Assembly: GCA_015501055.1 (NCBI GenBank)
Contig: JADNYV010000102.1
Location: 62,001-126,000, forward strand
From: Mucidula mucida
Taxonomy: Eukaryota; Basidiomycota; Agaricomycetes; Agaricales; Physalacriaceae
Direction: 5' to 3'
Length of the DNA stretch: 64,000 nucleotides
Part shown: positions 14,764 through 61,015 of the stretch, piece after piece
How the letters are laid out: each line of letters opens with the position of its first letter
Numbering within the stretch: position 1 is the first letter of the stretch
The notes under the pieces: generated by a model
Told to the model about the DNA's origin: nothing
The model's database searches: none
Seen by the model: the letters and a program-made list of their open reading frames with translations, nothing else
Program-made: the position numbers and the translations under genes

Positions 14764-16864
14764 CGTGCAGGTTGTGTATCTCGAGATGTCTTGTCAAAGT
14801 TGGTTCTCATGATTCTTGTTCAGTAGGACCTTGTTTGTTTGCGGAGAACCAAAGCAGAATTTTTATGGACCTCGTCTATCACTTTGACCATCTCCGGAAA
14901 CCTTTGTCATCATCGTGTCCCGCGGTAGTCGACGATATTCGTCGAGATAGTGGACAGTGAATCGACCATGTCCATCACACCCAAGGAGTCTAGCTGGTTA
15001 TTGTCGTTCGCTGATAAAATTGGGTCACGAATTGTGGCGCCAAAGCGTGTTCTATATCATCTTCCCTTCTTGATAATCGAAAGCGCATCTTCCTTGCGTT
15101 CGTCAGGCATCAATATGATATCTCTCGTCGTTGTCTTTCGATTTCTCTTGTGAGTGGATGTCGCGTTGTACGTGCTCGATGTTCATTCCGGAGGTGCTTG
15201 ATCGCCACGACGCTGCTTATGGGCTCTGGATATCGCCGCCCGTTTAACTTACTACTTTGCAAAATTGACTCTACGTTGGACCTGTGGCGTTTTCGCACAG
15301 ATGGTACCGAAGACGTTCGGGGTGACAGAAGCATTGCGGAGGGGATGTCGGGGATGCCGCTGTTGTATGGAGAGCGGACGCGCTCTCCGAGTTTTCGTGC
15401 TCGTGGACTTCAGCTAAGACAAAACGCTGCACCGCTACCGGCGCACTTTGAATGACATGGCACCGCCGAAGATTTCGCTTCATTCCTGTTGGTGAGTACC
15501 TCCGGCTTCGTGTATTCCTTCTTTTGGGTCAGTTTTTTTCGCCATTCATTATTACGACTTCCCGTGTCTAAATTAAATCTTAGATCTTAGGGTTCACGTA
15601 CTTGCCATCTGTCGGAGAGCCAATTTTCTTTCGGCGGTGCTGCAATAGGTTCGTGGTTACATATGTTTCAAACTATGTTTGGCCCTCACACTTTCATTAC
15701 GAGAGGACCCATATCGTCTTTCAAGCAAGCAACAAGTGGCGTGGCGGTTACGGAGCGTAGCTTCACGTTCGCGACTCTTATTGTACAAGAACTGACAAGT
15801 ATCAATTGAAGGCCTCCTCCGATACCGATGCTACCCTTGGCATACTATTGTGGCATGAACCAAGATCCACCGGGACCGGTCTAGTACCCTTCCTTGTTCC
15901 TCTTTTGGAAGAACGAGCAGTTTATATTGTAAGCGCGGCTGTGTGAAACGCCACGGGTTTAGTCTCTTTACGAAGGGAGGTAACTCACGTGATATCGTGT
16001 TTTGGATGGCACTGAATTAGCAAAAATTTCGAAAGATTCAACATTCACGATCCATTGTAACTCGTTGCTGTCCCTCGTGACGCGTTTCCTCTGTAGCTCA
16101 TCTTAGTGACTAGAACTATGATTATTGGGGCAAGAGCCCTCACGGTGCAGTTCCCGGTTTCGGGACAAGACTCGGACTGGTCTGGTTTTCGTGTTGAAAA
16201 TTGCGACTTCGGTGGAGATCGGTCATGTATGAGGCCCACCGCATCTGTTAACTTGGACGGGATTATGAGAAAAAGGCCAGAGGTTCAATTCAACAAATGT
16301 TGCTCACGTGTTCATGCATTTCAGAGGCCAAATGTTCCTTGGTCTTCGCATGATCTGGAAGGACTTCCGGCAACGGCACTTACTACGGTGGCATTCTATT
16401 ATACGTGCTTCCGATAACGCATGACCCACGTTGCTCTGAACTTGCCCCTCGCATAGAAGCTTATTGCCGGAGAACCCGACGCGTCTAACGCGTTTAAAGA
16501 AGGAGAACAAGATTCTCGAACTGTGCCTCGAGTTTCAATCGTGATATCTGACGCGTCAACGTTCGCTCGTCGAGCATGATGAGGACTGATGAGAGATTAA
16601 ATTTGGAAAGATATCACCACCGTTAGTTGCGAGTCAGTGGTGCTACGCTTGAACGGTACTGTTTGCCCGTGTGTTGCTGTTTCTCAATGTAGTTCCGCAC
16701 ATGAACCACTGACGTTGGGAAATAGATCTCGCGCTACATACCTCAGGTTGAAAGAGCTGAATGGCAGTAGGTACCTAGAATCTGGTTACAATGTCAAAAC
16801 TCCTGCAAACACGCAGAATAGGGCGGTCCGCGACATTGACTGAGCCCGTTCTCAAAGGACTGCC
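14764..16864. other. About 2.1 kb with no recognised gene
   Basis: Several short open frames occur on both strands (for example 15150-15455 on + and 15110-15334 on -). None shows a family motif, and I could not link them by splice sites into a convincing gene. The 5' part is the 3' flank of the XPC gene. The rest may be relic sequence. Confidence 0.4.
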
Positions 16865-16900
16865 CCGGAGGATAGCCACTGGCGGGTCGCTGGCGAACAG

Positions 16901-16908
16901 TAAATAAA
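16901..16908 (+). promoter_or_regulatory. Altered TATA element of DPBB copy 1
   Basis: TAAATAAA lies 82 bp upstream of the start codon, at the place where copy 2 has TATATAAA. The base change could lower expression of this copy; that is inference. Confidence 0.4.
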
Positions 16909-16989
16909 CGAGGGAGGTTTGAACTCTCTACTCATCACCAGCTCTTCCAAGCTTCAGTGTTCTATCAGCCTTCCCAACCTATTACAACC

Positions 16990-17435
16990 ATGGTCTTCTC
17001 TTTCTCCAAGCTTATGGCACTCGCCACTCTTATCAGCGCCGCCCACGCCTTCAGTGGTGACGGTGAGTTCAACTCGTTCGTCTGGTCTGTCGTGTGCTGA
17101 TGTCGACCAGCTACCTACTACTATCCCAACGGTGGCTACGGCGCCTGCGGACAACCCCTCCAGAACTCGGACCACGTCGTCGCGCTGGCTTCGGCGCAAT
17201 ACAGCAGCGGCGCCAACTGCGGACGCCAGATCAGAGTTAATTGTACGTCTATTTCACAGATTATTGTGATTTCTTCGTCTCACAATGAATAGACAATGGC
17301 AAGAGCGTCACTGCCAGGGTTGCCGACCTCTGCGCGGGATGCGTCAGTGGCGATGTCGACCTTACTTCGTCGGCCTTCGAAGTCCTCGCTCCCTTGAGCG
17401 TGGGCCGCATGCGAGTGACATGGGACTACATTTAA
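16990..17435 (+). CDS. Small secreted single-domain DPBB protein (RlpA/expansin-like), copy 1
   Basis: Three exons with introns starting GTGAGT (after FSGDG) and GTACGT (after QIRVN). The protein is about 120 residues: a signal peptide (MVFSFSKLMALATLISAAHA), then one double-psi beta-barrel domain. It contains TYYYPNGGYGACG, NSDHVVALASAQY, NCGRQI, and DLCAGCVSGDVDLTSSAF, ending in RMRVTWDYI. Four Cys are placed as in basidiomycete DPBB proteins related to loosenins and the so-called riboflavin-aldehyde-forming enzyme group. There is no C-terminal carbohydrate-binding module, so it is not a full expansin. The likely role is extracellular cell-wall association or inhibitor-like; enzymatic activity is unproven for many members. 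Confidence 0.82.
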
Positions 17436-17735
17436 ACGAATGTATTCCCAGCCTAAGTCCTGAATCATAACGTTAGAGTACCACTTTGTAGAGTTCATAC
17501 TACATAGGTCTCCTCAGAATCCGACGTTGCCTTTGGTTTAGATGCTAGTTTCAACATACGCGCTCGAACCGTGATATGAAACTTGGGCTCTTTCAGTGTC
17601 ACTAGTCCTGTTCTCCCTTGCCCAAAAGTTATCTGTCAGAATAAGCAAGCTTGACGAGGTAGCACTATGAAGTTTGAACATATACCTAACAGGACTGTAC
17701 CAGACGCCACCAGCATTTTGCCTCATTGGTAAGAT

Positions 17736-19784: not shown

Positions 19785-20246
19785 TCTTTAGGGCCAGGCG
19801 TCGGGCAGCAGTGGCCGCGACATCGCCGTCGCGTACAGGCAATGTTCGCCATATCGACGATGATGAGCCTGAGGAACCTATTGCGGGCACCAGCAATGGC
19901 GCTCAGTAGCGTATTCACCCGCGTTGTGCAGCCATTGAAATCTCATCCATTTGGGGTATAACCTTCTATGCGTTCCCGAAGCAGCTAAGTCCTAGCATTC
20001 ATTGAGTGAGACTACGGAATTTCATATGTACGGGTTTACCAGATGACAAGGAAACGGATGAGATCTAGGTGCGTGTTGGTGTTGCTACAGATCCTAATGA
20101 AACCGGTGAATTTTCTCCTTCAATTCATTCGAGAAACGGCTGATGCTCATTTGGTTATCATCCGTGCTTCATCCGTTCTTCATCAGTTTGACCTGACGAA
20201 TGTCATCCGCGACGGGCCTTACAGTGGGCGGGTAGCTGGCAAGAAG

Positions 20247-20254
20247 TATATAAA
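20247..20254 (+). promoter_or_regulatory. TATA box of DPBB copy 2
   Basis: A perfect TATATAAA, 79 bp upstream of the start codon. The paralogous site upstream of copy 1 reads TAAATAAA. Confidence 0.6.
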
Positions 20255-20325
20255 CGAGGAGGTTTGAGCTCTCTACTCGTCACCAGTTCTCTCAAGCTTC
20301 AGAGCCTTCAGAGCCTATTACAACC

Positions 20326-20772
20326 ATGGTCTTCTCTTTCTGCAAGCTTATGGCACTCGCCACTCTTATCAGCGCCGCCCAAGCCTTCAGTGGTGACGGT
20401 GAGTTCAACTCGTTCGCCTGGTTTGTCTTATGCCGATGTCGACCAGGTACCTACTACGACCCCGACGGTAACGAAGGCGCCTGCGGAGAGAAACTCCAGA
20501 ACTCAGATTACGTTGTCGCGTTGGCCTCTGAACAATACAGCAGGGGCGCCAACTGCGGACGCCAGATCAGAGTTGAATGTACGTATAATTCACAGATCAT
20601 TGTGATTTTTTTCATCTCACAATGAATAGACAATGACAAGAGCGTCGCTGCCAGGGTTGCTGACCTCTGCCCGGGATGCGCCAGTGACGATCTCGACCTT
20701 ACTTCGTCGGCCTTCGAAGCCCTCGCCCCCTTGAGCGTGGGCCGCATGCGAGTAACGTGGGACTACATTTAA
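20326..20772 (+). CDS. Small secreted single-domain DPBB protein (RlpA/expansin-like), copy 2
   Basis: Same three-exon structure as copy 1. Signal peptide MVFSFCKLMALATLISAAQA, then GTYYDPDGNEGACG, NSDYVVALASEQY, NCGRQI and DLCPGCASDDLDLTSSAF, ending in RMRVTWDYI. Differences from copy 1 are concentrated in the loop after TYY (DPDGNE against YPNGGY) and around the second Cys pair (CPGC against CAGC), so the two copies may have diverged in ligand. Copy 2 keeps a consensus TATA box. Secreted; precise activity unknown. Confidence 0.82.
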
Positions 20773-21136
20773 ACGAACCATAACGTTAGACTACCACATT
20801 GTAGAGTTCATGCTAGATAGGTTCCCTCAGGCCTTTGGTTTAGATGCCAGTTTCAACAAATATTTCCTCGAAATGTGAAACGTGGACTCCTTTACTAGTA
20901 CTACCCTTGCCCAAAAGTTGACTGTCAGAATAATAAATCTTGACGAGGTAGCACTATGAAGTTTGAACCTATACCTAACAGGCCGGTACCAGACGCCGCC
21001 AGCATTTGGCCTCATCAGTAAACTCTCATAGCTTCTGATGTTTGTGAATCATGACAAGTGCAAGGGCCCTGAGGCCTGAGCACGTCGGCAGCAGCGCCCG
21101 GGCCCCGAGGCCAGGCAGGGCCCAGCGCCACACTGC

Positions 21137-21142
21137 AAAAAA
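21137..21142 (-). terminator. RNA polymerase III terminator (T6) of tRNA-Glu
   Basis: On the minus strand a run of six T lies 24 nt after the discriminator base of the tRNA gene, as expected for a pol III gene. Confidence 0.7.
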
Positions 21143-21166: not shown

Positions 21167-21745
21167 TTCCGATACGGGGAATCGAACCCCGAGCTGCCGC
21201 GCATCGCCAGGACCCCCGAAAATGCTACCAAATGTATGATCCTGGCCCAAATTCTTATCCGGATCCCAAAAAGGAAGGTGTATCCGCACTTTGTACCAGA
21301 CCTTGCCAGATACTGGATTTTTATCCGCACAATGTACCAGACCCTTGTGTGGCGCAGGGTCCTCGGAGACCGAAAAAATGCCAAATTTTGCTCAAGAATC
21401 GCGCAAAATCGTCGTTTCAGCACAAAATCACGTAGAGGGACGTAAATTCACGGCTACAAAGCTGGTGACCCTTGCCGGGAATCAGAGCCTTCAGCCTCCT
21501 TTCAGCCCACCCAAAATCTTATCCGCACTTGACATCAGACCTCTCCAGATGCCCAAAATTTATCCGCACATGGACTCAGACCTTTTCTCCAAAAAGCTCG
21601 ATTTTTATCCGGAAAGGTACCAAACATAGTCTCAAAAAGTTCAATCTTTATCCGCACAGGGATCATACATTTGGTAGTATTTTCGGGGGTCCTGCATCGC
21701 CATAGTTGTGAAAGGCGGCAATGTTAGCCGTTACACCATATCGGA
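21167..21745 (-). tRNA. tRNA-Glu(UUC), intron enlarged to 507 nt by a transposon
   Basis: Exon 1 (21745-21709, 37 nt) gives a 7 nt acceptor strand TCCGATA, TG, a D stem GTGT/ACAT with GG in the loop, anticodon stem GCCGC, and loop CTTTCA with anticodon TTC and A37. Exon 2 (21201-21167, 35 nt) gives C38, the pairing strand GCGGC, a T arm CGGGG-TTCGATT-CCCCG, acceptor strand TATCGGA and discriminator A. All stems pair, and the mature length of 72 nt fits tRNA-Glu. The intron starts exactly after position 37, the canonical site. Removing the inserted element and one target-site copy leaves a 14 nt intron. The B box GGTTCGATTCC (21188-21178) is perfect. The gene lies 74 bp past the stop codon of the AMP deaminase gene on the same strand. 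Whether it is still expressed is doubtful. Confidence 0.9.
21209..21693. mobile_element. Non-autonomous DNA transposon (hAT-like MITE), 485 bp, in the tRNA-Glu intron
   Basis: Terminal inverted repeats begin AGGACCCCCGAAAAT and continue with TACCAAATGTATGATCC at both ends, about 36 bp with two mismatches. It is flanked on both sides by GCATCGCC (21201-21208 and 21694-21701), a perfect 8 bp target-site duplication. An 8 bp duplication is the hallmark of hAT-superfamily elements. It has no coding capacity. Inside are seven copies of a TTATCCG core (near 21255, 21281, 21321, 21519, 21560, 21605, 21648), several followed by GTACCAGACC or TCAGACC. Such repeats look like the subterminal transposase-binding repeats known from hAT elements. 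Assignment to hAT rests on target-site length only. Confidence 0.85.
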
Positions 21746-40273: not shown

Positions 40274-41858
40274 TGAACAGTGTTTCCGGGAGGGAGAGAA
40301 GCGAAGAAAGGATGGAAGGACAAAGCTTTAGGTAAATAGCTCCTGTCCGACACGTGACCATCAGCCGACGCGTCGCGTAACGAGGATGGAAGAAATACAG
40401 GCTGATAGCTATTCTGCAGGAGGTACACAAGGTATTCGTGCGATTATACCTCGACGTGATCCATGAGCTATCCAAATCTGAACTGTGAGTGTACTCATGT
40501 TTCAAAATCCCTTTAGTACTCTTCCCTTGTTGAACATAACATAAGTAGTCTACTATACTCTGCTGTCCTTTGTATAGCTCTGTCTCTTTGCCATGTCCCT
40601 TCAAGGCTTCTATTGTCATTTCTTTTGAGAGTGTGCTGTCGGCACGGGAGGCGTGCCCATCAGCCTTCATCTCATCAACCGGCGTCGCACATAAGTATCT
40701 CAATACTCCGATGAAGTACTACCCTCGCACATCGATGTCACTAGCAACGCACCTCAAAGCTCCTTCTCCCTTACACATAGCTCCTTCTGGAGGCCCCGCA
40801 GCTCCTCACACGTCCGGACATACTCCGCCTTCAATTCCTTTGCCTGTTCTACGTCTACTGGCAGCGCAGCACTCATCTGAAGAAACGAAAAATATGAACT
40901 TCTCAAGTCACGCCAGCAGTGCCGTCGCTTGTCTCGACATTCTCTGCATGACATTGTGATTCTTGGGGACAATATCCGACCAAGGTATGCTACCTACCGT
41001 TGTTAAGAACGGTAAGCTGGCACTGTACAATGCGATTGCCTCGATTTTCGCGGGCGCAGGGCGTGCTCTTCTCGAGATGAGCGTAAGATTGCGTTGTCGA
41101 GAAAGGCAAGACTACATCTTTGCGGAAAATGTAGCTTTGAACAAGAAAACGTTGTAAGTCTTCTTGTCTTTCCGACAAGATTGGCTATCAACCTCGATCA
41201 AGAAGTCAGTTGATGGGATCCGAGTGGGGACACTGCACTTGGATGAATTCGGCGACATAACGTGGACTTACCCAAGAGAAGACCTAGCATCTTAGGCTAT
41301 GAAAGGCAGAGTAGTCCACTGTAGAGTCGATCCGCGTCCAGGCCGTACTTAAGCGGTGCTCGACATTGATTTGACGGAGTACGAGTTACTAATGCGCGGA
41401 GTAAAGTGCCTCTTGGGCGGCGATGATGAGAGTACTGCCACGTAGCGATGTGGACACGGATCTGTGCAAAGAGCAGAGTAGCCGGGAAGGAGATTCAAGG
41501 ATAGAGAGTGAGCATTGCGAGATAGTTGTATAGGTTCAGGATAGCAAAGACGCCATCGCTTGAAATACGAGACAAATGATTGACTTTACAGTATTGCATC
41601 TTGGAGTTGATGAACTTGTTGCGTGGTGGTTGTGATGAGATCATCCGGCTGACGGGCGCGATCACAAGCCGATCAAATTAGTACAAGCTGAGCTGCCCCT
41701 TTCGTTCTTGCTTTCTTACCACCACGACCACGCAAGCAGGTTCAGGAGCCCGACGACGACTTACCAAGTGCTCCGACGAGTAGTACAACGACGAGAAAGG
41801 CTGCCCGACCGCTTGCCCGCCCGCCGACAGTCGTGTCACATATCATACCCCACCAACG
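40274..41858. other. About 1.6 kb without a supported gene
   Basis: A long minus-strand frame overlaps the promoter of the pRiA4b-like gene, and a small frame at 40754-40972 could encode a short coiled coil (VEQAKELKAEYVRTCEELRG). Neither has supporting context. The right half is the upstream region of PSD2. Confidence 0.4.
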
Positions 41859-44800
41859 ATGGCGAAAAAGACGCTGAAATTACCGAGGGCGCTCAAGATT
41901 AAGCGCGGCAATGGACGACGGGGACGCGACCTGAAGCCGATTCCAGGGGAAGACCCCATCGTGCTGCTGCGCGTGCAGGTTATTGGCTGCTCAGACTTGC
42001 TCGCCAAGGATCGGGGTGGCACGAGCGATCCGTAAGTGGGTTTTCTCCGTCTTTGTCTGTTCTAATCCATTCTAGATTCATTCTTCTCACATTGCTTACG
42101 ACCCGCTTCACGACGCCTGTAATTAAGAAGAGTCTCTCGCCCACCTGGGTTGAGGGTACCGCGACGTTCGACTTTCCGATCTATCTCAGCATGAGCGACA
42201 GGCTCGGCGTTCTCGAGCTCGTTGTCTGGGACAAGGATATGCTCAAGAAGGAGTACCTCGGTGAAGTTAGCGTCGCTGTGTCTGATTGGTTTGGCAAGGA
42301 ACAGGAGAGGGCCTTTGGGTTTACTGATAGCAACAACACGGTATGTTCAACTTCTCTTCTTAGAACGTTTACTTAATCTCTTTATAGCCGTTCACACTTC
42401 CTTTACTTTCGACACGGTCTAATACTACCGCGTCTGGTTCTGTTACGCTCAAGCTTGGATTTGTACATCCGCCGAACACGACAGTTCTATCCGAATTTGA
42501 AGAAACCTACGATGAACTTGTCAAACGTGGCAGACGCAGTCTTGTATCTGCACCTCCGGTAAGAGAACTTGACTCTACGTTCTGTCTCACCTGACGGTCA
42601 ACTTCGATTTCTACTCAATACTTGTCGACTTATAGACCGAAGGCGTGGGCACAATTCGGTCCTACTCTGGTGCTCCCAATCTGGTCGACGACTATGAAGA
42701 CGATGGTGGCATATCGTCTGGCTCGTCCTCTGAGGATTCGGACGATGAAGACGAAGAGGACGACTTTGTCGATGCGCCTGACGACTTGGACGCGTCAACT
42801 CCCATAGCCGCGCCATCGTCATCCCTATCTACTCCTCCCAAGACTCCAAATTTAGCCATTACACCGCCATCTCCGTCTGCGCCTCTCCCCGCCTCTGCAC
42901 TTCCCAGGAGTCAGATATCCACTCCCAAACCAAAGAGCCCTACCTTCATGCGCATGAAATTCCCAAGGCGGAATACCGGTGGATCTCTGGTGTCGAGTGG
43001 CGCGAGCACTCCCGTTTCAGACGAGGACATGAAGGAAAAGAAAAAGCGATTTAGAACCAGTTTCCCAAGTCCAAGCTTATCGAGAAAGAACACGACTAGT
43101 GGAGAGGACAGCGGAGGCGGAAGCAAGAGGGAGCGGAAGAAGAAGCCGTATAGCATAAGCAGTCCTAACGATATTGTTGGGATCGTGATGCTGGAGATCA
43201 AGAGCGCAGACGATCTACCGCGATTGAAGAACAGTATGCACTCCCCTCTATTCTACTTCACAGCTAACAGCTTTTCCAGTGACACGCACTGGTTGGGACA
43301 TGGATCCTTTCGTTGTTATATCTTTTGGGAAAAAGGTTTTTCGCACACGCGTCATTCGCCATAGTCGCAACCCGGTATGGGAGGAGAAGCTTTTATTCCA
43401 TGTCCGAAGATACGAAACCAACTTCAAGATACAACTTACGGTGCTCGACTGGGACAAATTGAGCAGCAACGATCTTATCGGAGAAGGGGCGCTCGAGGTG
43501 GGTCAACTCATAGATGCCTTTGCCGGCGACAAGGTAGACGCGCCGGTCGAAATTGAGATAGGGAAAGGCGGCGCTTCAGTCCCCACGGACCAAGAAGGTG
43601 GTACGGACGACAAGGAGATGAAAGAGTATAAAGTCCAGATATCGACTGGTGGCAGCGCGGCTTGGGAGGCGATGCACAAGCCTATCCTTACCGTGCGGGC
43701 CAAATACCAACCTTACGCGGAGCTTCGACGCAAATTTTGGACGCAGTATCTTAAGCAGTACGATACGGACGACACACAGAGTCTCAGTCATATCGAAATT
43801 ACGAGTATGCTTGACTCGCTCGGCAGCACATTGACGAAGACGACAATCAACGGATGGTGGGAACGCTTGGGAAAAGACCCACATACGGATGAGCTGAGCA
43901 TCGGGCAAGCAGTAATGTGTCTTGAAGAGGAGCTAGGACGACCTGATAGCGAGAAGCGCATGGCCAATCCAGACGGCGACGAAGACACGAGCATCAGCGC
44001 CACGCCTGTCATGATGGTGTCCGATTCACGTGGTGGAGAGATCAAGTTGGATCAGCTCAACTTCTCTGGCCCACCGATGAGTGTTATACCGGGGGAGAAG
44101 GCCGAGACGGAAGGCATGCAGATCCCCCTCAGGCCAGATGGTACACGGCTGCCCTCGTCGGAGACGTCGCCTGCCGCGCCTGGAAGTTCGCCTGGTGTTG
44201 CCGGGAGACGTATTCCTTCTTATTCCAGTTCGGATGATGGAGATGAGGCTGACGATGCCGAAGATGAGACTTCGTCCTCAGCGGTAGCGTCGTCACCTGG
44301 GGGCGCGCGGAAGGGCGGGAAGATCAAGGGCCGTTTCCGTCGCAAGGGGAAGAAATCCAAGTCCTCCGAATCGTCCTCGTCCAGCGGCTCGAGCCCCCCT
44401 GGTCCGTCTCTGGAACGTGTTATCAACGTGAAGAACTGTCCGCTGTGCCACCGACCGCGACTTAATTCCAAAGCGGAGATGGATATCATTACGCATTTGG
44501 CGGTGTGTGCGTCGAGTGACTGGAGCAAGGTGGGCTCGATTGCGGTGAGCAATTATGTGACCGGGGCGCAGGCGCAGAGGAAGTGGTACACGCGTATCAT
44601 GGGTAGAATTGGTGGGGGTGATTACCGGCTTGGGGCGAACAGTGCGAACATTATCGTGCAAGATCGGATCAGTGGGGGGCTGCAGGAGGAGAAGATGGCG
44701 GTGTACGTGCGACTCGGGATCAGATTGTTGTACAAGGGGACCAGTCGGATGGAGGGCGGCGCGGCGAGAAAGTTGTTGAAGAGTTTGTCGATCAAGCAAG

Positions 44801-45714
44801 GCGTGAAGTATGATGCTCCTGAGAGCGCGGCGGGCATACCTGCATTCATCGAATTTCATGGGTTGAAGGTCGATGATATTCTGGATCCGCTGGATTCGTT
44901 CAGTAGGTCCCCTTGAGTCGACTGTTGACATTTTGCTGATTGCCTGATCATTTAGAAACTTTCAACGAATTTTTTTATCGCAAGCTTAAGCCTTCCGCAC
45001 GCCCAATCGAGCAGCCGGAGAATCCTTTCCGACTGGTGTCAGCCGCTGACTGCCGACTAATGGCATTCGAAAGTGTTTCCGAGGCGACGAGGTTGTGGAT
45101 TAAAGGGCGCGATTTCACTGTGGCCAAGCTTCTAGGCGATGTGTACAAAGCGGATGCGCCACGGTACGACGGCGGTGCTGTTGCGATTTTCCGGTTGGCG
45201 CCACAAGATTATCACCGTTTCCACTCGTCTGTGGATGGTCGCATTGGGAAAATGGAGTATATTAGTGGGGAGTATTATACTGTCAATGTGGGTCTCCCTA
45301 ATCTTTCATGGTGGCCTCCAAACTGATGAATATTTAGCCCCAAGCTATTCGGACCCAGCTCGACGTGTACGGAGAGAATGCGCGTAAGGTCGTGCCTATT
45401 GATTCGCCCCAGTTTGGCAAGGTGATGGCGGTGTGCGTGGGTGCGATGATGGTTGGGACGATCAAGACTACTGTTGAGGAAGGTGAGGATGTCCGGCGGG
45501 GGCAGGAGTTTGGGTATTTTGCATTTGGTGAGTGCACGGCGATGTAAGGAATAATGTAAACTAATGTGATTTAGGTGGCTCGACGATTGTGATGCTTTTC
45601 GAACCTGGAAAAGTTGTGTGGGATGAGGATCTGTTAATCAATGGACGTGCAAGTTTGGAGACGTTGGTGAGAGTGGGGATGGGCATCGGGACGGCTGTTG
45701 GAAGTCCAGCGTGA
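41859..45714 (+). CDS. PSD2: Phosphatidylserine decarboxylase, PSD2 type with two C2 domains
   Basis: Makes phosphatidylethanolamine by decarboxylating phosphatidylserine on endosomal/Golgi membranes. Start MAKKTLKLPRALKIKRGNG. The first C2 domain reads LLRVQVIGCSDLLAKDRGGTSDP, then SLSPTWVEGTATFDF, then WDKDMLKKEYLGE. A serine- and acid-rich linker leads to a second C2 domain (WDMDPFVVISFGKKVFRT, SRNPVWEEKLLFHV, LDWDKLSSNDLIGEG). Next is an EF-hand-like loop (YDTDDTQSLSHIEITSML) and a Cys-rich patch CPLCHRPRL. The catalytic domain has NEFFYRKLKPSARPI, PQDYHRFHSSVDG and the self-cleavage motif FGGST, split by an intron after FG. The Ser of GGST becomes the pyruvoyl group of the alpha chain. 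Seven or so introns, all followed in frame. Fungal PSD2 usually carries the same C2, C2, EF, catalytic order. Confidence 0.93.
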
Positions 45715-57179: not shown

Positions 57180-60085
57180 TACACGTCACTTTGTATTGTC
57201 GACCGCTTGTTCCTCTTGCCTTTTCTCGCACTGAATTGGACCACTTTCTCATGTTCATTGTGCCCTGGCCGCGTCGCGTTCCTGCCCCTTTCTGCTCGGC
57301 CTTCTATTCTCTCTTCACATGAAAACAGAGCATGAGCCTTCTCTGACTCTACTAGTACTTACAATCGCAACATAGAAACAAGTCCGCTTCCACAGCACCC
57401 TCAAGCGCGAGCAGGTTGACGTCAGTGCCCTCAGTATATGTGAATATGTAGTCTTGTTGACCCGACTTTACGAAGAAGATGGGACTCGGATGCTCACAAT
57501 CTTCTCTATGTAAAGTGAATACGCACAAAACACCATACCAGACCTTTAAACCATGTCTTCTTATTTCTCACATCAGGAAAAAGCCTTTGGCTACGGTATC
57601 CTGGCTGAGCAATCAAGGAGCTCCGATATCTTTGATAGCCAGCGTAGCTCCAGTAGCTGGCCCTACCCTGATGAGTAGTGGCCCGTAGCATAGCTAACAC
57701 AGAGCAAAGGGTATGGTACTGGCAATAAATACTTCAATGACATTACTTAGGGTGTTGATGCTATTACTGAAGCTAAGAATGTCAAATGAAGGGCAGTGGC
57801 TCATTGGAGAGAGAAATCTATTTGGAAATGGTATATAAGATACTGCTGGTCTGAGCTTGTCGACTCAATTACAACAGTTTTGCGCTTTGGGGTGCATCAC
57901 TCAGATAGAAGGAAAGCCAACTTATGATTCAACCATTATATACATAAGAAGAGTGGTTGTAGCCTAACGGTGTAGCTGTGGCAAGGGCATCCACAATCAA
58001 TTCGCAGTTCATAGTGACAGTCAATGAAAGACGCGCAACATTAAGTCCATGTTGATCAGTTCTTATTTTTGGGATGGTCCGTGCGCTGCTTTCCACGGGC
58101 ACGTGGAATGTTGACTTTTGGAACTTTGGGCTCCGGTCTCTTTACCTTACTTTCTTTCCTTCCTCTACATTGGTCTGTCCAAGACTCCAAGTTCTTTCAT
58201 GGCCGCCCTTGCACACATAGACTTCCGCAGACTGAGACTGTATCAACATTGCCAAGTGTTACGGCGACTTGGCAATGGTGTGCTCGCCGCCTTTGTACTT
58301 ATGGACTTTGAGACCCGTTGTCTGCTGCAACACATTGATGTGCTGCATTCCGCATTTGTACATCCTACGCCCCCTCCTTCCACCGCTCAACCATGCCACC
58401 ATTGCTAATGTTAGTGGATATTATTGCTTCCTCAACCTCATTTGCTTAATTGCCAACATTTGTTAGGTTGTGCTTCTGCCGTGGTTCCGCTAGGCAAAAG
58501 ATCTGTACACAATTTTGTCTGTAGTAGTGCCTATTGTAGTGCTTGTCATGTAGTTGTGATCTGTGGTATAGCATCAATGATATTATTTTCTCACTTTCTC
58601 TTGCCACTATTGAGCTGTCCAAAGAATATTAAGTATAATATCTGATTTATACAAGCTGCTACATGCCGCTGATGCACCTCTACAGACCGGTACATCCTGG
58701 GTACATACTTGGTACAGAGTGCTACTAGCAGCTACCAAGCACTACATAAGGGCCAATCTCCTACCAGGCTACTGATGCTATATCTGTCAGGTACTACTAC
58801 CAAGCAGTGTTAGTTTTTCCTGATGCAAGTTACATTCTGACTATAAGTACCTCTCACAGAACTGCTAAAGCCAAGCCAATTCACCTTCATCCTTTGAAGA
58901 CTCCATTATGACGACCAAAGATTGCAAGCACATGAAGTCAAAAGCATTTATCACTGTGTTATGAATTGCCATATTTTCACATTTTCACATCTCATCATAT
59001 CTTATTGGGGGGCTTGTCTTATCAACCAACGGACTGTTTTATTACCTGTTTTGTCTACAATCATACTCCTTTTCATTACCGAAGCCGTACTCATGTCGGA
59101 CACACACCCAACATATGGATGACATCATACATGCCGATACCTCATGAACTCCCTATTGTATACACACCACCAACACTTGTAGCACACATGGTTGTTTCAG
59201 TATTATTACTTACATGCAGACACCACTTGTATTTAATGGTTTCACGGACTAGTAGCATACAACACTGGGTCAAGGGCGTGGAGTTATCCCTAGCGGAAAC
59301 ACATATGGACAAGGAGTCCCAAACACAGGCTTACTAGTATATAAGCAGTAGTGTAGTATCATTGTACTTTAGTTCCGATCTTGTTTATACACCTGGCCTA
59401 GCCTAGTTCTACGAACGCGAATACTTTCTTCCTTAGTTCTTGCTGTGGTACCTGGTTTAGTCTCGTGGCTATAGTCAGTCGCTAACAGAAGATCAGAACT
59501 ACTTTCTACCACCTACCACACATCCCTGATCGTTGATCAGCACTTCGCTGTTTGATCATCGCACATTCCCCCATCCCTTTTCCTGTTTACAGATCAAAGG
59601 AATCCTAATTCTAGCGCACATCCGCATATGTGTGTATTGGTCCCAGTAGCACCGGCTAACAGTTAGAGATAACTGCCTCGGGTGCTGGAAGTAGCCGCTC
59701 TCACGAGAACGAACTTTTGGCAGTTGCACTTCAGTGGGCGCTGTTTACGGGTCAACCCCCGTTCCCAGGAAAACTTCGGCTTACCTCACACCAGAGGGAC
59801 GTTGGCTGGGCAATTGTGAACTTGTGACGAGCTCTTGGGCTCCGTAGATACATAGTCAGTAGTCAGTAAAATAGTGTAGACAGTTACGATACTTACCTAC
59901 TTTACTTACCTTACGATACACATCATCATTCCCCACCCTACCAAGTCCTGGATTCTATTTCAGATCTAGGCAATTCCCCCTTATTCATCCAAACCTCTAT
60001 CCCCTCACCCGTTTCATCCAAATCTGCATCACCCATATCTCCATTTTCACCCTTTCACTCTCCGATCACATCACCCCGACTCACC
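57180..60085. other. Gene-poor, AT-richer stretch, probably transposon relic and 5' part of the gag-bearing element
   Basis: No conserved gene. Open frames are short and stop-rich. A TATATAAG box near 59337 and a long untranslated stretch up to the gag start would fit the LTR and leader of a Ty3/gypsy element. I could not define the LTR edges because no second copy is visible in the window. Confidence 0.4.
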
Positions 60086-61015
60086 ATGTCCAACGAAGCA
60101 CCCGAAACCGCTCATTACGCACCCGCTCATTATGCCGATGTTGAAACAAAAGGCCGATTCCTTGGCAACAAGCCTTATGACTATGACGGGGACAAGGCCA
60201 AGTACAAGAGCTGGTGGCGATCAATGTTCACATACATCCGTGACAAGAAGAACAACCTTACATCTGACTCCGAAAGGATCAATGTTATTCTCTCCTATAT
60301 CCGAGGAGATCATGTCGATGCATGGATCCAGAACTACTCGGATCAGAATTTTGATGAGGAGGAAGAGGAATGGACAGTCTCCTGGATGGAGTTCAAGGAG
60401 CATTTGAAGGAGCGATTTGTGGATTCCAACCTTGCGCGAGACGCGCAAGACCAGATCGAGCGGTTGCACCAGGGGCAAGACACCGCTCAAGATTTCTTCC
60501 AGAAGTTCGAGGTCCTGCTCACCCAGGCGGAATACTCGAAGGATGACGCATATGTTGTACAACTTCTCGAGACCAATGTCAACGAGAAGATCATCAACCA
60601 GATCTATGGCAGCCGAGACGGGTTGCCGGTGAAGTACAAGGATTGGAAGGCACAGATTATTCAGATCAATCAGTTGTGGAGGAGGCGGATGGCGAGCAAG
60701 AGGCCCAGCATGCAGTCCCGGCCCCAAGCTCCACAGATGGCTACATCGAGAGCCAATCCTACAAATCCACCCCCGACGCCGATCACACGACAAGATGCTA
60801 CCGGTGTTACCTATGGAGGAGCCGGCAGGCCGATGGACATCAACAATGCACGTCGAAGGGGACTCTGCTTCAGCTGTGGCGAACACGGCCACGTCAGCAG
60901 GTTCTGTCCAAAGAAGGGTCGACCTCAGACGATTCGGGGTCTATGGACTGAAATGAATAACAAGGAGAAGAAGAAGTTGGCCGAAGAGTTGGGTTTTGCG
61001 AAGCTCCCGCAGTAG
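60086..61015 (+). mobile_element. Ty3/gypsy-type gag ORF, intact, without pol
   Basis: One uninterrupted frame of 309 codons. It contains a capsid-like retrotransposon gag domain: KYKSWWRSMFTYIRDKK, DAWIQNYSD, WMEFKEHLKERFVDSNLARD, and then QGQDTAQDFFQKFEVLLTQAEY. A proline-rich linker leads to a CCHC zinc knuckle CFSCGEHGHVSRFC near 60868-60909, and the tail ends ELGFAKLPQ. Gag packages element RNA in virus-like particles. No protease, reverse transcriptase or integrase follows in the next 950 bp, unlike a complete Ty3/gypsy element. It is a truncated element or a solitary gag gene. Confidence 0.85.

Follow-up and report, generated by a model that had tools for sequence, protein, structure and literature searches.

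A 485-bp transposable element lies in the intron of a nuclear tRNA-Glu(UUC) gene in the stretch of Mucidula mucida DNA analysed here (the window: 64,000 nt, contig JADNYV010000102.1, positions 62,001 to 126,000). The insertion has exact ends and is flanked by a perfect 8-bp duplication, the same assembly holds an empty allele of the gene, and the element belongs to a family for which empty alleles are also found at two other sites. We consider it very likely that this is a recent, heterozygous, MITE-like insertion at the intron border of one tRNA-Glu(UUC) gene, with a filled allele that is probably silent and whose loss is tolerated. An earlier note on this DNA had proposed that a DNA transposon sits inside a nuclear tRNA intron, and the target duplication, the inverted ends and the empty site uphold that proposal.

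With introns of up to 600 nt allowed, ARAGORN calls a tRNA-Glu(ttc) gene of 72 bases plus an intron of 507 on the minus strand, at window 21167-21745; with an intron limit of 150 nt it makes no call anywhere in the window. Once the insert is skipped, both halves make up one tRNA with a UUC anticodon. Exon 1 and exon 2 of the filled gene are intact and identical in sequence to those of the empty allele, and the exon 1 sequence is also shared with sibling tRNA-Glu genes. The claim that both tRNA halves are complete is thus borne out by the ARAGORN call and by the match to the empty allele. That the halves would be called as one tRNA across a long intron stands for ARAGORN. In Rfam the empty allele is found as a tRNA (49.0 bits; cut-off 29), but the filled gene gives no family at the gathering cut-off in a search of the window, as would be anticipated when the two halves lie so far apart; at a loose threshold, exon 2 has two weak matches, to mascRNA-menRNA (18.5 bits) and beta_tmRNA (10.2 bits).

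The break had been placed at the canonical 37/38 intron site. Sibling genes support this position and ARAGORN puts the break at 36/37; the border is uncertain by 1 nt. We read 16 other tRNA-Glu genes (11 UUC and 5 CUC, with alleles counted apart and the empty allele included), a subset of the copies that a genome search gives; in every one the matched halves are separated by 12-27 nt at this same position. Three of the 16 are labelled otherwise by ARAGORN (Met, SeC and Tyr), and L028 is called intronless. Intron-containing tRNA-Glu genes are clustered on contigs C394 and C466 (G000).

The assembly, the one examined, comprises 59.9 Mb in 1047 contigs. One of these, C266 (43 kb), aligns with window 15208-52714 as a collinear series of five blocks (98.4-100%), separated in places by unaligned sequence. 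At C266:6677-6762 (G000) the gap between the tRNA halves is a 14-nt intron rather than 507 nt, and joining the window flanks over one copy of the duplication reproduces all 86 bases. The extra 493 nt in the filled gene are therefore the 485-bp element plus one 8-bp duplication, and the expectation that excising 21209-21693 with one duplication copy would leave a 14-nt intron agrees exactly with an allele that does exist. Because of its collinearity with the window, C266 appears to be the other haplotype of a dikaryotic or diploid individual, and this site an allele rather than a recent duplicate. The two contigs also differ elsewhere. C266:25219-31086 is a 5.9-kb insertion without a counterpart in the window (at 40847-40851), bounded by TTCTA on both sides and with ends TG...CA, the pattern expected of an LTR retrotransposon, and about 717 bp at C266:900-1616 are missing from the window at 16106.

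The duplicated 8 bp consist, in RNA sense, of the last 7 intron bases and tRNA base 38, so that the 3' intron/exon border is itself present twice. The element has terminal inverted repeats, a target duplication, several similar copies and no transposase, which makes it MITE-like; it has no long reading frame (the longest stop-free stretch is 129 codons), and it contains TATCCG seven times, in a single orientation. Coordinates are collected in Table 1.

Table 1. Features of the filled tRNA-Glu(UUC) gene and its insert, in window positions.
Feature	Position	Strand	Basis
tRNA-Glu(UUC) exon 1, 37 nt, 5' half to A37, with A box	21709..21745	-	Identity to empty allele and siblings; ARAGORN
tRNA-Glu(UUC) exon 2, 35 nt with A73, with B box	21167..21201	-	Sequence comparison; ARAGORN
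Interruption at 37/38, 507 nt (14-nt host intron, 485-bp element, 8-bp duplication)	21202..21708	-	Border +/-1 nt
Non-autonomous inverted-repeat element, 485 bp, starts AGGACCCCCGAAAAT	21209..21693	.	11 genome copies
Left terminal inverted repeat, 34 bp, 33/34 match	21209..21242	+	Sequence comparison
Right terminal inverted repeat	21660..21693	-	Sequence comparison
Target site duplication copy 1, GCATCGCC, 7 intron bases and base 38	21201..21208	.	Single copy in C266
Target site duplication copy 2, GCATCGCC	21694..21701	.	Single copy in C266
T5 run in tRNA sense, terminator-like, intron nt 71	21634..21638	-	T-run scan
T5 run in tRNA sense, intron nt 114	21591..21595	-	T-run scan
T6 run in tRNA sense, intron nt 331	21373..21378	-	T-run scan
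T5 run in tRNA sense, intron nt 437	21268..21272	-	T-run scan
Downstream T6 run of the gene itself	21137..21142	-	T-run scan

The genome holds 10 other copies of the element, with matches of 92-99% for eight of them and 72-76% for two, and because of these further copies elsewhere an insertion is far beyond what chance would explain. The 11 copies occupy 10 sites, those on C620 and C937 having the same flanks and so counting as one; C265 and C67, which match one end in part, were not included in the count. Every copy has an exact 8-bp duplication, the 8-bp target sequences vary between sites, and the 14 end bases are the same in 10 of 11 copies, the copy on C382 having shortened ends. A pattern made of a pair of neighbouring TATCCGCAC motifs retrieved one match only, a copy already known. 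The earlier suggestion to look for an empty-site allele led to C266 in the same assembly, and empty alleles are found for three of the five copies checked: C25/C266, C655/C87 and C303/C349, the last deduced from match coordinates. For the copies on C205 and C115 a second allele was sought in the assembly and none was found. These three of five indicate that the family moved recently. The element present at the same site in both C620 and C937 is an older copy and gives no sign of polymorphism.

By its 8-bp duplication the element could be hAT-like; all 11 copies have this hAT trait, which is not unique to hAT. MITEs and hAT-like non-autonomous elements are short, with inverted ends, no transposase frame, near-identical copies and 8-bp duplications. 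Our element resembles hAT-like MITEs in each of these features, and in its recent mobility. The ends of hAT elements usually start with CA or TA, whereas this element begins with AGG. Transposase domains are common in the genome, with at least 104 matches to the hAT dimerisation domain, at least 89 to KDZ and at least 122 to Plavaka; among the matches listed, no hAT dimerisation domain is tied to the ends of the element. Searching with 15 end bases (one mismatch allowed) brought up further elements, and those examined share the first 12 bases only. They include an element of about 0.7 kb on C249 (L085) and one of 3.2 kb at C2:423526-426751 (L084), each with an 8-bp duplication, and a pair of ends 12.3 kb apart at C360:138182-150471, bordered on either side by identical 8-bp sequences. 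None of the listed hAT, KDZ and Plavaka matches falls inside the C2 or C360 elements.

We scanned nine frames, four from L084 and five from a locus on C14 (L083), and the four from L084 had no transposase match. A 1.5-kb piece of the C360 element carries a DDE_3-like frame of 215 aa (20.6 bits, below the cut-off of 28.6) with 27 relatives, many of them with DDE_3. This frame may be either the element's own transposase or part of a nested element. Searches of structure databases using two frames returned no matches. A hAT gene on C14 was considered as a partner and rejected: the end-like sequence 1 kb away from it does not belong to that gene, since three other hAT copies cease to match about 0.9 kb inward of this sequence. 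A fourth locus, on C59, matches the C14 sequence throughout, as an allele would.

Either of two further proposals, that this fungal MITE family inserts by preference into Pol III genes or next to them, or that the filled allele yields some mature tRNA-Glu, is in our estimate rather unlikely to be correct. The former has a precedent. According to the accessible parts of two descriptions (PMC3706591, PMC8869645), members of the Dada superfamily of DNA transposons integrate into tRNA genes, including the stretch around the anticodon. Complete Dada elements measure 4.7-11 kb and occur alongside shorter derivatives that carry deletions; terminal inverted repeats were not found, the duplications are of 6-7 bp, and the target is mostly a family-specific RNA gene. 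The likeness is that of a DNA transposon inside a multicopy tRNA gene, in the anticodon region for some Dada families. The differences are that the present element is 485 bp long with 34-bp inverted repeats and an 8-bp duplication, and that eight of its ten sites have no tRNA gene in the flanks fetched. Its inverted repeats, its duplication and its varied sites rule out membership of Dada as so far described in those parts.

If the family favoured tRNA genes in the manner of Dada, whether through their open chromatin or through the Pol III machinery, tRNA genes should recur at its sites. Two of the ten independent sites do fit, one in this tRNA intron and one 80 bp upstream of a tRNA-Leu(AAG) gene (C655:3079-3562), and both of these insertions are missing from the other haplotype; the chance of two or more in ten is about 0.001, assuming 1000 tRNA genes with 100 bp on each side. 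The other eight sites, however, lack a tRNA gene within 1.0-6.6 kb of flank per side (ARAGORN, and Rfam on nine loci), and their 8-bp targets differ. One of the two fitting sites, moreover, is the one that prompted the study; without it the count is one in nine, with a chance of 0.01-0.04 (assuming 300-1000 genes). We therefore regard a preference for tRNA genes as unlikely. Intron-containing tRNA-Leu(AAG) genes are present on both C87 and C655.

The earlier note had also said that few if any cases are known of a DNA transposon occupying a nuclear tRNA intron. That part stands as far as titles and the beginnings of abstracts in the open-licence literature go, where we found none, which does not imply absence in print; the accessible parts of the Dada descriptions (PMC3706591, PMC8869645) do not include a tRNA intron insertion. 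The wider novelty does not stand, as Dada strikes tRNA genes, even in the anticodon region. The site is unusual and the transposition ordinary: DNA transposons in tRNA genes are already known. In archaea, from what is accessible of two sources, tRNA introns are linked with mobile elements and themselves transpose between tRNA genes (PMC10714607, PMC4033280). Sequence is gained within tRNA genes in both settings, but here a transposon landed in an intron that already existed. An archaeal paper reportedly treats the disruption of tRNA genes.

It had further been suggested that an intron of 507 nt could in principle still be spliced. This looks unlikely: in tRNA sense, runs of T5, T5, T6 and T5 precede exon 2 (Table 1), and the distance from A box to B box, start to start, grows about tenfold, from 57 bp in the empty allele to 550 bp. 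Five T4 runs also lie in the insert before exon 2. As controls we took 56 tRNA genes of the same genome (40 of 63 matches, and the 16 tRNA-Glu genes). Their longest internal T run is 2 in 27, 3 in 28 and 4 in a single gene, and each of the 56 is followed within 100 nt by a run of T4 or longer, the first such run being T5 in 22 and T4 in 21. Read in reverse, the window element has two T5 and three T4 runs, and nine other copies have at least three runs of T5 or longer in either direction. A Pol III limit of about 365 bp for A-B spacing has reportedly been published; the figure was not found in the accessible part of the one source consulted for it. Yeast A-B distances are 31-93 nt (PMC5356446). 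For S. cerevisiae in vitro, T5 is given in part of one source as the minimal terminator and T6 as relatively efficient (PMC9278858). According to the same source, termination at T4 and T5 runs can be inefficient and may need a hairpin in the RNA close by or a helper factor. Carried over to the host fungus by analogy, the S. cerevisiae rule suggests that the gene is probably switched off, because the insert carries Pol III terminator-like T runs, and we infer that the filled allele is mostly or wholly silent.

A functional filled allele would have Pol III read through the insert, the repeats form a stem, and the splicing endonuclease remove the 507-nt intron. In its favour, the two exons are undamaged and give a single tRNA fold once the insert is left out, and the inverted ends are predicted to pair in a long stem, which would place the two tRNA halves close together (fold z-score -4.67). 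Read-through at yeast terminators is about 10% on average and over 40% at some, according to the accessible part of one source (PMC5356446), which makes some full-length precursor conceivable. Against this are the four T5-T6 and five T4 runs before exon 2, where none of the 56 controls exceeds T4 internally, and the spacing of 550 bp. The intact exons say nothing about function, because a recent insertion leaves them intact whether or not the gene works. Minimum-energy folds show no cloverleaf for the filled gene, and since they show none for the empty allele or three siblings either, folding speaks neither for nor against function. We thus think it quite improbable that the filled allele works. 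The locus had also been put forward as a natural test of how large a tRNA intron can become; it is a poor test of length alone, because the insert brings terminator-like runs as well.

That the insert was misjoined into the tRNA gene during assembly is hardly credible: only one assembly is at hand, but the duplication is perfect and not creatable by a misjoin, the ends are those of the other copies, and the empty allele is exact within tens of kilobases of collinear flank.

Under the preferred reading of a recent, heterozygous insertion, a transposase supplied from elsewhere in the genome would have acted on a short, non-autonomous, MITE-like element, which would have landed recently, in one haplotype of the two, where the 14-nt intron ends on its 3' side. 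The T runs would then stop Pol III before exon 2, and the filled allele would fall silent. The loss would be tolerated, as the other haplotype and the other UUC genes remain; a count of the latter, as had been proposed, gives at least 10, with alleles counted apart. The locus offers a clean natural pair of empty and filled alleles at a tRNA intron in what is apparently one individual. It illustrates how transposition can take a single gene out of a tRNA family, probably at little cost, and single-nucleus strains would allow Pol III read-through and the splicing of tRNA to be quantified in a natural context.

Several other features of the window are of note. Window 16881-17726 and 20227-21015 appear to be direct repeats, about 82% alike, the second of which ends near the tRNA gene. 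A frame at 28266-29261 matches the GCD14 tRNA methyltransferase subunit; its position about 7 kb from the tRNA gene is probably due to chance. At 43228-44913 lies a frame of the phosphatidylserine decarboxylase kind, with its best named relatives in the agarics Agrocybe chaxingu (57%) and Galerina marginata (55%), which points to an agaricomycete host, and at 59870-61015 a retrotransposon gag with a zinc knuckle.
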